Positions 2,097 to 18,508 of a stretch of DNA of 23,557 bases are shown piece by piece (positions within the stretch are counted from its first letter, which is position 1; the number at the start of each line of letters is the position of its first letter). Both the position numbers and the translations under genes were made by a program. This DNA is from a virus. The notes beneath the pieces are model-generated. The model was not told where the DNA came from and searched no databases. It saw nothing but the letters and a program-made list of their open reading frames with translations. The DNA lies in the IMG/VR virus record IMGVR_UViG_3300043395_002168, positions 1-23,557 of that record. One strand, given 5' to 3'.

Positions 2097-2608
2097 ATGA
2101 CGATACATTCGCCCGTGTAGTAGCGGAAGATGTTAAGAACCGTGCAACTCAACCACAGAAGGAATACCTTCAACTGCCTGAAAACTGGAGTCGTTGGCAG
2201 CGTGCACTCAAGACGCTAGAAACAAACCTTAATGACCAACTTGGAAGTATCTATTCCTATGAGCAGGAGCAAATCAGGACGTTTAAGGCTCTTGGCTCGG
2301 ATGGCGTAAAACTGATTGCTGAGGCAACGGCAGAGTTTGAGGCACGACGCAAGAAGATTGAGCGCTTTAAGTTCCATGTAACTAATAGGCTTGATGAAGT
2401 AACGCGCATGATTGCTGTCGGTGGTGAAGCCGTTGATGAGCGATTGAAGGCTGTTGATTTCCTTCGTCGTGCTATTGAGAAGCATCGTTCAATGATGATG
2501 TCGTATGACCTTGAGCCGACACCGATTGATGGTGCTTTGTGGGCTGCGTTGGATGGACGATGGGAATTTGAGAACCTATCCGAAGAGGACATTCTTTCGT
2601 TCTCATGA
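2093..2608 (+). CDS. Hypothetical helical protein in the recombination operon
   Basis: This protein is not recognised. I start it at ATG 2093 rather than the upstream in-frame ATG at 2072. ATG 2093 forms an ATGA overlap with the nuclease stop and has GGAG at 2083-2086 six bases before it. The resulting 171-residue product is predicted mostly helical and charged, with heptad-like stretches between about residues 40 and 130 (for example FEARRKKIERFKFHVTNRL) and an acidic C-terminus (FENLSEEDILSFS). There are no cysteines, membrane segments or enzyme motifs. It is translationally coupled on both sides, to the nuclease and to the PAPS-reductase-like gene, so it may belong to either partnership. 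A structural or adaptor role is possible but is only inference. Confidence 0.8.
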   Translation: MNDDTFARVVAEDVKNRATQPQKEYLQLPENWSRWQRALKTLETNLNDQLGSIYSYEQEQIRTFKALGSDGVKLIAEATAEFEARRKKIERFKFHVTNRLDEVTRMIAVGGEAVDERLKAVDFLRRAIEKHRSMMMSYDLEPTPIDGALWAALDGRWEFENLSEEDILSFS

Positions 2609-3768
2609 CACGGCAGCGAATGTTCCTTGATATTTCGTGCGTGGATGCTGCGCGCGAACGCATGCGCCATGTCTACGACACGTTTGACACTGTTTGTGTT
2701 CAGTTCTCTGGAGGAAAGGATTCAACTGCAGTCCTTTATCTTGCAAAGGAGATTCACGAGGAGCGCAACCTCGGACCAGTCAAGGTCATTTTCCGTGATG
2801 AGGAAATGGTGAGCCCACTAGTTATTGACTTCATTATGAAAGTTCGTGACTATGACTGGGTTGACATGGAATGGTACTGCCTTCCAGTCGGACAGGAAGT
2901 ATGGGTTCTTGGCAGGCGCGAGTACTGCCTTCTTTGGTCGCCAGAGCGAGCCAAGAGAGACATGCTTGTAAGGGAAATGCCACCATTCGCTATTCGTGCT
3001 GAGCATTTTGGGATTGACCCATCTCGCCCAATCCCTGAAACAATTGACTTCTATACCATGCAAGGTAAGCGTGGCAGAACGGCATTTATCACTGGCGTAC
3101 GCGCAAACGAATCAATGATTCGTTATCGCTCGTGCGTTCAGAAACTGCATGAAAACTACATCAATATTCCATTTAGAATGAAAAAGTCAGTGCCGCTTAG
3201 GTTTGCGAAAGTGATTTACGACTGGACGACAGATGACGTTCTTAAGTTCATCACCGAAGAGCACGGCGGGGAATACTGTGAATATTACGACCTTGCCGCG
3301 ATTACTGGGAGTAATACTCGTGTTGGAATCCCACTACATGCCGTCGCATCGCGTCGCATTGGGGATGTTGTCGCAACAGAGCCAGAATTTTTTGACAGGC
3401 TCTATGAGTGCTATCCGCATATTGATGCACAGCGCCGTTGGTGGAGTGAATTCAATATTGAGGCACTAATTGCGCAATATGTTGAGGGTGGATGGGATGG
3501 TGTGCGCCAATGCATTGACGACAACATGCTTACCCCAGGAATGCAAGGTGCCGCAATGAAATTTGCAGGTGAATTTAGGAAGAAGCAGGCGACAGACAAA
3601 TTCGGCTACCCGCTTGACTCCCTCATCCGTACGCTGTTGCTGAATGAGTTCCAAGTAACTTCACCCAACCCTGTCGGACCGAAAACGCGTGCACACACGC
3701 TGCGAACTCTTGCCGCGCAGCAAGAACAAGACCAAAATGACATTGACAGTCTGGATGATTACAAATGA
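2605..3768 (+). CDS. PAPS-reductase-like N-type ATP pyrophosphatase (IbrA-like)
   Basis: This belongs to the adenine nucleotide alpha hydrolase superfamily that includes PAPS reductase, DndC and prophage IbrA. The PP-loop FSGGKDST lies at residues 34-41. GVRANESMIRYR at 164-175 and YDWTTDDVLKF at 205-215 are the other motifs usual in phage and IbrA-like members. The C-terminal KRxxECGLH cysteine motif of true assimilatory PAPS reductases is not seen, so reduction of PAPS to sulfite is unlikely. Activation of a substrate by adenylation, possibly linked to sulfur or base modification, is the more general expectation. The protein is 387 residues, with several scattered Cys. It starts at ATG 2605 in an ATGA overlap with the preceding gene and ends in another ATGA overlap with the ParB-like gene. 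The family is clear; the substrate is unknown. Confidence 0.87.
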   Translation: MTRQRMFLDISCVDAARERMRHVYDTFDTVCVQFSGGKDSTAVLYLAKEIHEERNLGPVKVIFRDEEMVSPLVIDFIMKVRDYDWVDMEWYCLPVGQEVWVLGRREYCLLWSPERAKRDMLVREMPPFAIRAEHFGIDPSRPIPETIDFYTMQGKRGRTAFITGVRANESMIRYRSCVQKLHENYINIPFRMKKSVPLRFAKVIYDWTTDDVLKFITEEHGGEYCEYYDLAAITGSNTRVGIPLHAVASRRIGDVVATEPEFFDRLYECYPHIDAQRRWWSEFNIEALIAQYVEGGWDGVRQCIDDNMLTPGMQGAAMKFAGEFRKKQATDKFGYPLDSLIRTLLLNEFQVTSPNPVGPKTRAHTLRTLAAQQEQDQNDIDSLDDYK

Positions 3769-4310
3769 ATTACTCCGAAATGCCCCTAAACTCCATTAAG
3801 CCTGCTCCGTGGCGTGTCAACTATGCACTAAAGCCAGACATGCTGCTTCTTGCTGAGTCTATGAATGACTATGGATGGCTCCAGCCAATTGTTGTACAGA
3901 AGTCAACTAGTCATATTATTGATGGTTTCCACAGGTGGGTTACTGCGCAGGATTCTAATTTTGTTAAGAAATACGGCAAAAATGTTCCCGTTATCATCGT
4001 TGATGTTGACAATGTTGATGCAATGATTATGCACGTACGTCTCAATCGTGCCCGTGGCAATATTTTTGCAAAGCCGTTCAGTAAATTAATCAGAACACTT
4101 GTCGTATCTGACAAGTACAGCGCAGACGAAATTGCTGACATGCTCAATATGTCCGCTGATGAATTTGACCTGATGCTTACTGGCGGACTCCTTAAGCAAC
4201 GAAAAATTCCACAACACCAATACTCAAAAGCATGGGTTCCCGTAGAGGCACCGAGTAAAGGCGAATTAGATAATCAGGTTATTGAACGCCCACCTAATGC
4301 TGATAGATGA
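3765..4310 (+). CDS. ParB/sulfiredoxin-fold protein (IbrB-like partner)
   Basis: This 181-residue protein has a ParB/Srx-type N-terminal domain. It opens with PLNSIKPAPWRVN, then ESMNDYGWLQPIVVQ, then the signature IIDGFHRW with DGFHR at residues 53-57. A helical segment follows (SADEIADMLNMSADEFDLML, about 124-143), consistent with a helix-turn-helix. The ParB fold can bind nucleotide, act as a nuclease-like enzyme, or recognise DNA. It is much shorter than a partition ParB and no parA lies nearby, so chromosome or plasmid partition is unlikely. The ATGA overlap with the PAPS-reductase-like gene argues that the two work together, as in the IbrA/IbrB pair of E. coli prophages. The C-terminal ~40 residues are polar and probably flexible. 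Confidence 0.85.
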   Translation: MNYSEMPLNSIKPAPWRVNYALKPDMLLLAESMNDYGWLQPIVVQKSTSHIIDGFHRWVTAQDSNFVKKYGKNVPVIIVDVDNVDAMIMHVRLNRARGNIFAKPFSKLIRTLVVSDKYSADEIADMLNMSADEFDLMLTGGLLKQRKIPQHQYSKAWVPVEAPSKGELDNQVIERPPNADR

Positions 4311-4369: not shown

Positions 4370-4786
4370 ATGCCCACAAGCAATCTGACAGAAGATGTTG
4401 AATTTTTAACTGACGTTGACACCCGTGGTGACGTTGTACGCCGCGCGCGTTTCATTCGTCGTCCACGGCGAGTTAATGGTCGTAACGTTCCCGGCAACGC
4501 TCGGTATTACCGTCGTCGTCAGCGTGAACTTCTGGCTGGTAGGCGCGCAGCGCAGCGAGCCGAGCGCGGTGGAGCACGGGCTGCTGCTGCTGGTCGGGCT
4601 GCACGCTCTGCTGGAGGGCGCGCCGCTCGTGCCCCACGTGGTGCTGGAGGAGCGGCACCTGCTGGTGGTGAGCGGCGTGCAGGATTTCTAACACGGCTTC
4701 GTCGTGGAATCCGCAACGTTGCTCGGCGGGTGGAGGCAAACCGTCGTACAAGGCGTGAGCGAGCAAATCGTCCGCCAACACGATAG
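4370..4786 (+). CDS. Arginine/alanine-rich basic protein (protamine- or histone-like composition)
   Basis: I start this 138-residue protein at ATG 4370, with GGAGG at 4357-4361 eight bases before it; an in-frame TTG at 4355 overlaps the Shine-Dalgarno and is rejected. Residues 1-20 are acidic and normal in composition (TSNLTEDVEFLTDVDTRGD). The rest is dominated by Arg, Ala and Gly, with runs such as RARFIRRPRR, RAARSAGGRAARAPRGAGG and TRLRRGIRNVARR. The DNA of the middle (about 4540-4680) is clearly more GC-rich than its surroundings, yet third codon positions are mixed, which fits coding in this frame. It lies directly before the head-tail connector. A nucleic-acid-binding or virion-internal condensing role is plausible but inferred from composition and position. 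Confidence 0.75.
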   Translation: MPTSNLTEDVEFLTDVDTRGDVVRRARFIRRPRRVNGRNVPGNARYYRRRQRELLAGRRAAQRAERGGARAAAAGRAARSAGGRAARAPRGAGGAAPAGGERRAGFLTRLRRGIRNVARRVEANRRTRRERANRPPTR

Positions 4787-17272: not shown

Positions 17273-18508
17273 ATGGGGCTGACGGTAAACGCGCTAGCAG
17301 AGAGCGACTGGACATTTACGGGTTTTGCAGTTCCGTCATCATGGACTGCAACCGATGCGACCCTGCATACCACCCTATCTGAATATAAGTATCAGGGTTA
17401 TGGTTCACTCAAAAGCACCCTCACAGCAACTTCTGCAACAATTTTATTTAATGACGACCTGTCCTCAACTACAGCCAAAACAACTGCAGATTATGTAGCG
17501 GGAAAGATTGAATCTTTTGTCTGGTGTCGCGCTACAGCAACAGCAATAATTACTCCACAGTTAACTATTACGCGAACAATGGGTGGTACGCCAGTAGAGG
17601 GTGTTGACATCTTCACAGCCTCAGGCACACCTATAGCCCTAACCTCTGGAGACTGGTACCTAGTTAGGACTGACCCAGTGTCTATCCCAGTTACTCCAGC
17701 AACGGCAACGTATAGCATTTCCTTGCAATATGTAATTTCTGGAGGAACTATTGGTTCTTCGGTATTTCTGCATTATCCAACAGCGTATGAACAATTGGCT
17801 TTTTTGCGGAACACATATTTAATGAACTGTTGGAGTAATATTCCTGCATTATTTCAAGATAAGGAAACTGAACTTCCACTTCCAAGTTATGCACTGCTGC
17901 GATTTATGGAAGTTGGCATGCAGGCGCATGGTGTAATTAATGATATTGCCGCTGGATTCCAGTATCAAGATATTTCCGAGGGCAAAGACGAAACTAACCA
18001 AGATACGTTAAGCATTCTTGTGCAACCATCTGAAATTCCCCGTGACTATATTTTCTGGGTAGCGCAATTCACTGGCACTCAACTGCTCAACCCAACTGCA
18101 GGGGCAACGCCATGGGCAAATATTCCAAGTACGTGGGATGGGATTGACCTTATTGATACCGTAGATGACCCTGATGACGTTGTTGCGTGGGGTTCTCTTC
18201 AAGGTTTTGCCCCAGAAATTGCAGGTCTTGATGACTTCTTCAGGTGGCAGGTGGCTTCAGGTTACTACGGATATGCGGCAGGCTCTATTGCTGCAATCCG
18301 TGAAGCAACAAAGCGCGTGCTTGGCGGAACAAAAACTTGCACAATCACGAAGAATTATCTTTCATCGCCATGGCGTATTCGCATTCAAACAAAACTTGCC
18401 GAAACGCCTGATGCCACAACAGTTGGAGAATCAATTGACGAAATGCTTCAATTGATGGAACCTGCGCGTCCTTTAGGCGTTGTCCTTACCCACGAAATTA
18501 TTGCATAG
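17273..18508 (+). CDS. Tail protein, P2 gpI-like, with an N-terminal beta-rich domain
   Basis: This 411-residue protein ends in the gpI-type wedge domain, which runs from about residue 175: LAFLRNTYLMNCWSNIPALF, LPSYALLRFMEVGMQAHGVI, LSILVQPSEIPRDYIFWVAQ, FFRWQVASGYYGYAAGSIAA and a closing TTVGESIDEMLQLMEPARPL, which is typical of the C-terminus. P2 gpI alone is about 180 residues, so residues 1-170 are an addition. They are beta-rich and Ser/Thr-rich, with SDWTFTGFAVPSSWTATDAT, then YQGYGSLKSTLTATSATILF, and SSVFLHYPTAYEQL at the end, the look of a carbohydrate-binding-module-like jelly roll. The gene starts at ATG 17273 with GGGGG just upstream and probably attaches fibres to the baseplate. 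Confidence 0.78.
   Translation: MGLTVNALAESDWTFTGFAVPSSWTATDATLHTTLSEYKYQGYGSLKSTLTATSATILFNDDLSSTTAKTTADYVAGKIESFVWCRATATAIITPQLTITRTMGGTPVEGVDIFTASGTPIALTSGDWYLVRTDPVSIPVTPATATYSISLQYVISGGTIGSSVFLHYPTAYEQLAFLRNTYLMNCWSNIPALFQDKETELPLPSYALLRFMEVGMQAHGVINDIAAGFQYQDISEGKDETNQDTLSILVQPSEIPRDYIFWVAQFTGTQLLNPTAGATPWANIPSTWDGIDLIDTVDDPDDVVAWGSLQGFAPEIAGLDDFFRWQVASGYYGYAAGSIAAIREATKRVLGGTKTCTITKNYLSSPWRIRIQTKLAETPDATTVGESIDEMLQLMEPARPLGVVLTHEIIA

Follow-up and report, generated by a model that had tools for sequence, protein, structure and literature searches.

The window analysed here is a whole 23,557-nucleotide stretch of viral DNA (IMG/VR record IMGVR_UViG_3300043395_002168), a 23.6 kb fragment from a virus. 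Two genes on its plus strand, here called A and B, are located between a recombination module and the head-tail genes. Gene A (2605..3768, +) encodes a protein of 387 amino acids with the PP-loop ATP pyrophosphatase fold of the PAPS-reductase/CysD/FAD-synthase type. Gene B (3765..4310, +) encodes 181 amino acids, forming a ParB/Srx-fold N-terminal domain (residues ~1-98) followed by a helix-turn-helix (HTH) domain (~100-145). The stop codon of A and the start codon of B overlap in the four nucleotides ATGA (3765..3768, +), which implies translational coupling. On the 5' side, the pair is preceded by genes for a Rad52-type annealing protein, a PD-(D/E)XK nuclease and a 178-aa protein without an assigned role. 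The annealing protein and the nuclease (PDDEXK_1, 1.3e-35) together occupy 542-2096 and constitute a compact phage recombination pair. On the 3' side lie an Arg/Ala-rich protein, the head-tail genes and then a contractile tail set. The Arg/Ala-rich gene (4370-4786) directly follows B, encodes a low-complexity protein, retains its position in close relatives and is accompanied by a long open frame on the complementary strand. A first-pass annotation, made from the DNA letters, had described the gene overlap, which is exact in its reading frames and coordinates, and had placed the pair in a contractile-tail phage. The latter assignment is supported by Baseplate_J (2e-21) and Phage_base_V (4e-5) domains, and weakly by a sheath-like domain (9e-5, below the Pfam cut-off). 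No ParA was found among the window proteins scanned, which represent part of the open reading frames.

Protein A matches PAPS_reduct in Pfam (9e-9) and phrog_2302 in PHROG (1.5e-71). As the first-pass annotation had read, it carries SGGKDS at residues 35-40, has GVRANES and lacks ECGLH; GVRANES is located at residues 164-170. Among 94 diverse A sequences, R19, SGGKDS 35-40, D65, E67, W111, R166, E169, R173, D206, D211, Y228 and R239 are invariant. Since relatives of A number 543 in viral contigs and SGGKDS is present in all 215 collected A proteins, the pattern formed by A and B is not due to chance. No alignment column of the 94 sequences holds an invariant cysteine; the best is C92 (82%), which is otherwise replaced by Ala, Thr or Gln. 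The ECGxH motif, with E. coli CysH as the positive control, occurs in one of the 215 proteins and is absent from window A. E. coli CysH itself has ECGxH and has lost the PP-loop that every one of the 215 A proteins keeps. In three contigs, a LAGLIDADG-domain intein interrupts A just before C92 (L138:5759-7861, also L139 and L140), and C92 would be its +1 residue. The 701-aa A proteins of these contigs were considered as A-B fusions and rejected because their extra length is the intein; no convincing natural A-B fusion was seen.

A single-sequence query with A against solved structures returned nothing useful, and only a deep profile gave matches, to CysD (3e-9), FAD synthase (5e-9) and, far behind, PAPS reductase (3e-3). 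CysD also outscores CysH in the comparison with the A family, and no CysH model is among the NCBIfam hits of A. The PADLOC and NCBIfam searches gave weak partial matches only. The AlphaFold model of A (pLDDT 91.7) most closely resembles the PAPS domain of human FAD synthase (Z 17.0), followed by APS reductase (15.4) and CysD (14.8). A PP-loop-type fold is thus common to A and the APS/PAPS reductases (Z 14-15, against Z 17 for FAD synthase), and the fold alone is not decisive; the reductase question is settled by the sequence and the motifs. The lack of an invariant cysteine and a profile far closer to CysD and FAD synthase than to PAPS reductase indicate, at the level of sequence, that window A is not a sulfonucleotide reductase and that naming it as one is a mistake. 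An active-site comparison, named beforehand as a refuting test of the first-pass reading, likewise places A outside the ordinary sulfonucleotide reductases.

Protein B matches ParB_N in Pfam (5e-6) and phrog_2159 in PHROG (4e-34). Residues G37, D53, G54, R57, P75, N94, G98 and E133 are invariant in its family. The DGFHR signature reported earlier is located at residues 53-57, so that D53, G54 and R57 of a DGxHR motif, which also occurs in sulfiredoxin and SerK, are among the invariant positions. The catalytic glutamate of the ParB CTPases (ENxxR, C-motif 3) is present in none of 98 B sequences, and window B has Leu93 at this position. In the AlphaFold model of B (pLDDT 85.6, weak after residue 140), 142 residues align with KorB (Z 14.4). 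The N-domain aligns with ParB and Noc (Z 11-12), while sulfiredoxin and the serine kinase SerK align less. B is therefore composed of a ParB_N domain and an HTH domain, and has the fold of the ParB partition CTPases without their catalytic glutamate.

The first-pass annotation had proposed a search for the gene pair across phage genomes, and this search found A and B retained together. Both are present in 48 of 48 related loci that extend 3.5 kb or more upstream, a set anchored on the neighbouring head-tail gene and not on A or B. In addition, each of the 23 long contigs has a single strong copy of both genes, side by side. Over all groups, B lies within 1.2 kb downstream of A in 182 of the 210 loci with room downstream: 45/46 in other viral contigs, 75/78 in bacterial genomes, 7/8 in isolate phages and 55/78 in window-clade contigs. 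In the window-clade exceptions, A adjoins genes that we read from their sequences as SNF2-type helicase, DUF932-like or dcm-type. Contigs that appeared to lack B (L028, L037 and others) were rejected as evidence of its loss: the only long record of this kind (G012, a 138 kb relative) keeps A at 86,243 and a single B at 17,939, 68 kb apart, and the others are fragments. A and B are thus core genes of a large aquatic phage group, co-retained and nearly always adjacent. Pairs of this type also occur on bacterial chromosomes, as in E. coli ybdNM.

In many phages, a third gene, encoding another ParB protein (ParB1), immediately precedes A. In window-type phages, ParB1 relatives are encoded elsewhere in the genome; a strong match is present in 17 of the 23 long contigs, and those without one are mostly shorter records. 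Genes near A and B are tied to DNA and include SNF2-type helicase, HNH, GNAT and terminase genes, with GNAT genes found after B in some loci. The helicase gene immediately precedes A at roughly 19 of 80 bacterial loci and in two phages of Streptococcus (L143, L085 and others). A gene of the histone-deacetylase family (amidohydrolase) is inserted between ParB1 and A in several contigs (L023:1959-2825, L047:7078-8004). At 15 of 88 loci, the gene after B is weakly glycosyltransferase-like (L033:10002-11075 and relatives). In one contig, a fusion of a ParB_N domain with an N6/N4 DNA methylase is encoded downstream of the ParB1-A-B module (L126:10360-11664).

In Bclasvirinae and their relatives in Gordonia, the stretch to the left of the terminase opens with a homologous first gene, ParB1, after which comes one of several cassettes. 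The slot of Heathcliff reads ParB1-x-x-A-B-terminase, and its relatives are alike. In Rhinoforte and Saguaro, which represent the Rosebush group in this comparison, the slot reads gp1-DpdA/TGT-QueC-QueD-QueE-FolE-terminase. In phage Rosebush, the DpdA-QueCDE-FolE gene set is proven to yield dPreQ0 at ~28% of Gs (PMC6884629). The slot of Waleliano reads ParB1-Tet_JBP-ADDT-Ploopntkinase3-terminase (5.5e-6, under the curated cut-off, for Tet_JBP; 1.4e-8 for ADDT; 7e-73 for Ploopntkinase3). The first genes of all compared slots, of the A/B, DpdA and TET/JBP types, are homologous. Among named phages, 46 carry A, 39 carry DpdA and 22 carry ADDT with zero overlap, an exclusivity that follows subclusters and is confounded by subcluster phylogeny. 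Heathcliff has no annotated queuosine genes in its 28-68.6 kb region or at its left end. In Mycobacterium phage Serendipitous, gp2 (L318:813-1730) is annotated as a queuine tRNA-ribosyltransferase and matches Tet_JBP (2.6e-7, under the curated cut-off); the label is likely a misannotation. Gordonia phage Shatter holds ABC-like and tRNA-methyltransferase genes in the slot. It is the Pipefishvirus homologues, ~35% identical to window A, that share the slot with proven modification genes; the window pair itself sits in another place.

Because relatives of A and B occupy a slot in which sister phages carry proven or predicted modification genes, we consider the pair most likely to be a phage DNA-modification cassette, one that would use adenylation and not thiol chemistry. 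Among the roles considered, this one has the best support, drawing on the slot exchange, the co-retention of the pair, the non-thiol PP-loop of A and the DNA-related neighbours. The first-pass annotation had left three options side by side; the positional exchange with modification cassettes favours DNA modification, and a transcription regulator or an anti-host system is less favoured. Several caveats apply. The slot argument rests on the more distant homologues, the window phage itself contributing nothing to it; morons with various functions could share the slot, as Shatter illustrates; and the same pair lies on bacterial chromosomes, where for E. coli ybdNM a modification role is only conjectural. 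The literature searched contains no report on the DNA chemistry of a phage with A and B.

In the proposed mechanism, B, together with ParB1, would bind and present phage DNA or a nucleotide, by analogy with the ParB-like DpdB described as serving DpdA in preQ0 insertion (PMC12839542). A would use ATP to adenylylate a group on the base or nucleotide, releasing PPi, and the adenylylated group would then be displaced by a nucleophile or further decorated. The GNAT acetyltransferase, HDAC-like and glycosyltransferase-like (weak) genes near the pair may supply lineage-specific end products. The benefit would likely be to shield phage DNA from host nucleases. Carbonyl adenylylation has precedents in TilS acting on tRNA and GMP synthetase acting on XMP. 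More tentatively, and with considerable doubt, A might be a cysteine-free, DNA-acting PP-loop enzyme that adenylylates a base carbonyl, which an amine or other group then replaces while B and ParB1 present the DNA; this would be a new kind of hypermodification of DNA bases, common among viruses but misnamed 'cysH'.

Roles in transcription control, phosphorothioation or sulfur metabolism have a lower probability. The pair could act as a transcription co-activator like IbrA/IbrB, with B binding DNA by its HTH and A sensing or altering a nucleotide, thereby switching phage or host genes. The resemblance to IbrA/IbrB claimed in the first-pass annotation reflects real homology, since profiles built from window-clade sequences only detect E. 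coli YbdN (3.3e-14) and YbdM (3e-21), and the two genes are nearly always adjacent. Window A, however, has no match to DUF3440 (PF11922), which YbdN matches as the positive control (2.6e-32). With its YbdN-homologous PP-loop domain and adjacent YbdM-homologous partner, and without this domain, A is best classed as a separate subfamily and not as an IbrA; the link read from these sequences is one of homology, from which a common function may but need not follow. The ParB-like HTH of B would suit a regulator, and such pairs are annotated as prophage gene expression co-activators in Rhizobium and Streptococcus phages and in PMC4490671. Yet A has a complete PP-loop enzyme motif in which every residue is invariant, which is odd for a pure regulator, the pair forms a core set beside structural genes, and it also occurs in FCL-2, a phage described as not lysogenising (PMC4541368). 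A co-activator also leaves the slot exchange with modification enzymes unexplained, and we regard this role as unlikely.

Still less probable is a nucleotide-pool or anti-defence function, in which A and B would produce or break down an adenylylated signal or nucleotide able to block host immunity, leaving DNA unmodified. Such a function would fit the fold relatives of A, FAD synthase and CysD, which make soluble adenylylated compounds, and the ParB/Srx superfamily, which includes NTPases and kinases. The DNA-binding-type HTH of B, the DNA-linked neighbours and the slot common with DNA-modification genes argue against it.

DNA phosphorothioation, in which A would take the part of DndC/SspD and B that of DndB, is very unlikely. 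The DndC relationship raised in the first-pass annotation holds as a weak similarity over the PP-loop, DndB belongs to the ParB superfamily (PMC10853773), and phosphorothioation was suggested in passing for a PAPS-reductase-like gene of a mycobacterial prophage (PMC8092301). However, DndC has a distinctive cysteine dyad (PMC10853773), of which the 94 A sequences show no conserved equivalent, and this lack of a conserved cysteine disfavours the reading. Moreover, A scores 23.7 bits against TIGR03183 (DndC), for which the curated cut-off is 290.4, and DndD, DndE or a desulfurase was not seen beside the pair. A role for A as an auxiliary metabolic gene, a PAPS reductase (cysH) that feeds sulfur assimilation in the host, as its Pfam and PHROG names and the frequent reports of cysH as a core viral auxiliary gene (PMC9301287) would have it, is highly improbable given the near-absence of ECGxH, a PP-loop that CysH lacks, the better score of CysD, the NCBIfam result and a constant partner that is ParB-like and not a sulfur gene.

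A and B are usually mislabelled as a sulfur-metabolism gene and a plasmid-partition gene. Existing phage annotations list the pair as IbrA/IbrB co-activators or the A gene as a PAPS reductase, and viral cysH commonly appears in lists of core auxiliary genes (PMC9301287). In a literature search that omitted most subscription journals, we found no paper proposing DNA modification for a phage ParB and PAPS-reductase pair. The cysH/PAPS reductase genes are ranked with the most widespread auxiliary metabolic genes of viruses and are taken as a sign of viral sulfur cycling; should the A family make up a large share of viral cysH and modify DNA, this reading would be wrong for those viruses. If true, the DNA-modification role would also provide a testable function for ybdN/ybdM (ibrA/ibrB) of E. 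coli, a pair that has long lacked an explanation. A and B are carried by easy model phages of M. smegmatis.

Four known systems offer a comparison. CysD and the PAPS-like domain of FAD synthase, which form an adenylylated product and PPi, are the best profile matches of A and among its best fold matches; like A, they keep the PP-loop and have no ECGLH-type catalytic cysteine. Their identity to A is low (<20%), and A differs in its additional C-terminal helical part and in its ParB-like partner. With regard to the KorB/Noc/ParB CTPases, the N-domain and HTH of B align with KorB, whereas B lacks the catalytic glutamate of ENxxR and has a DGxHR motif, and no C-terminal dimer domain is confidently modelled. 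The DpdA-QueCDE-FolE and TET/JBP-ADDT-P-loop kinase cassettes of Bclasvirinae use the same slot behind ParB1 as the A/B homologues, but the enzymes are completely different. IbrA/IbrB and E. coli K-12 YbdN/YbdM are likewise homologous pairs of a PP-loop and a ParB-like protein, adjacent and overlapping, with the A-type gene before the B-type gene. YbdN has DUF3440, which is not detectable in window A, whereas in window-type phages ParB1 is encoded as well and the pair belongs to the core genes.
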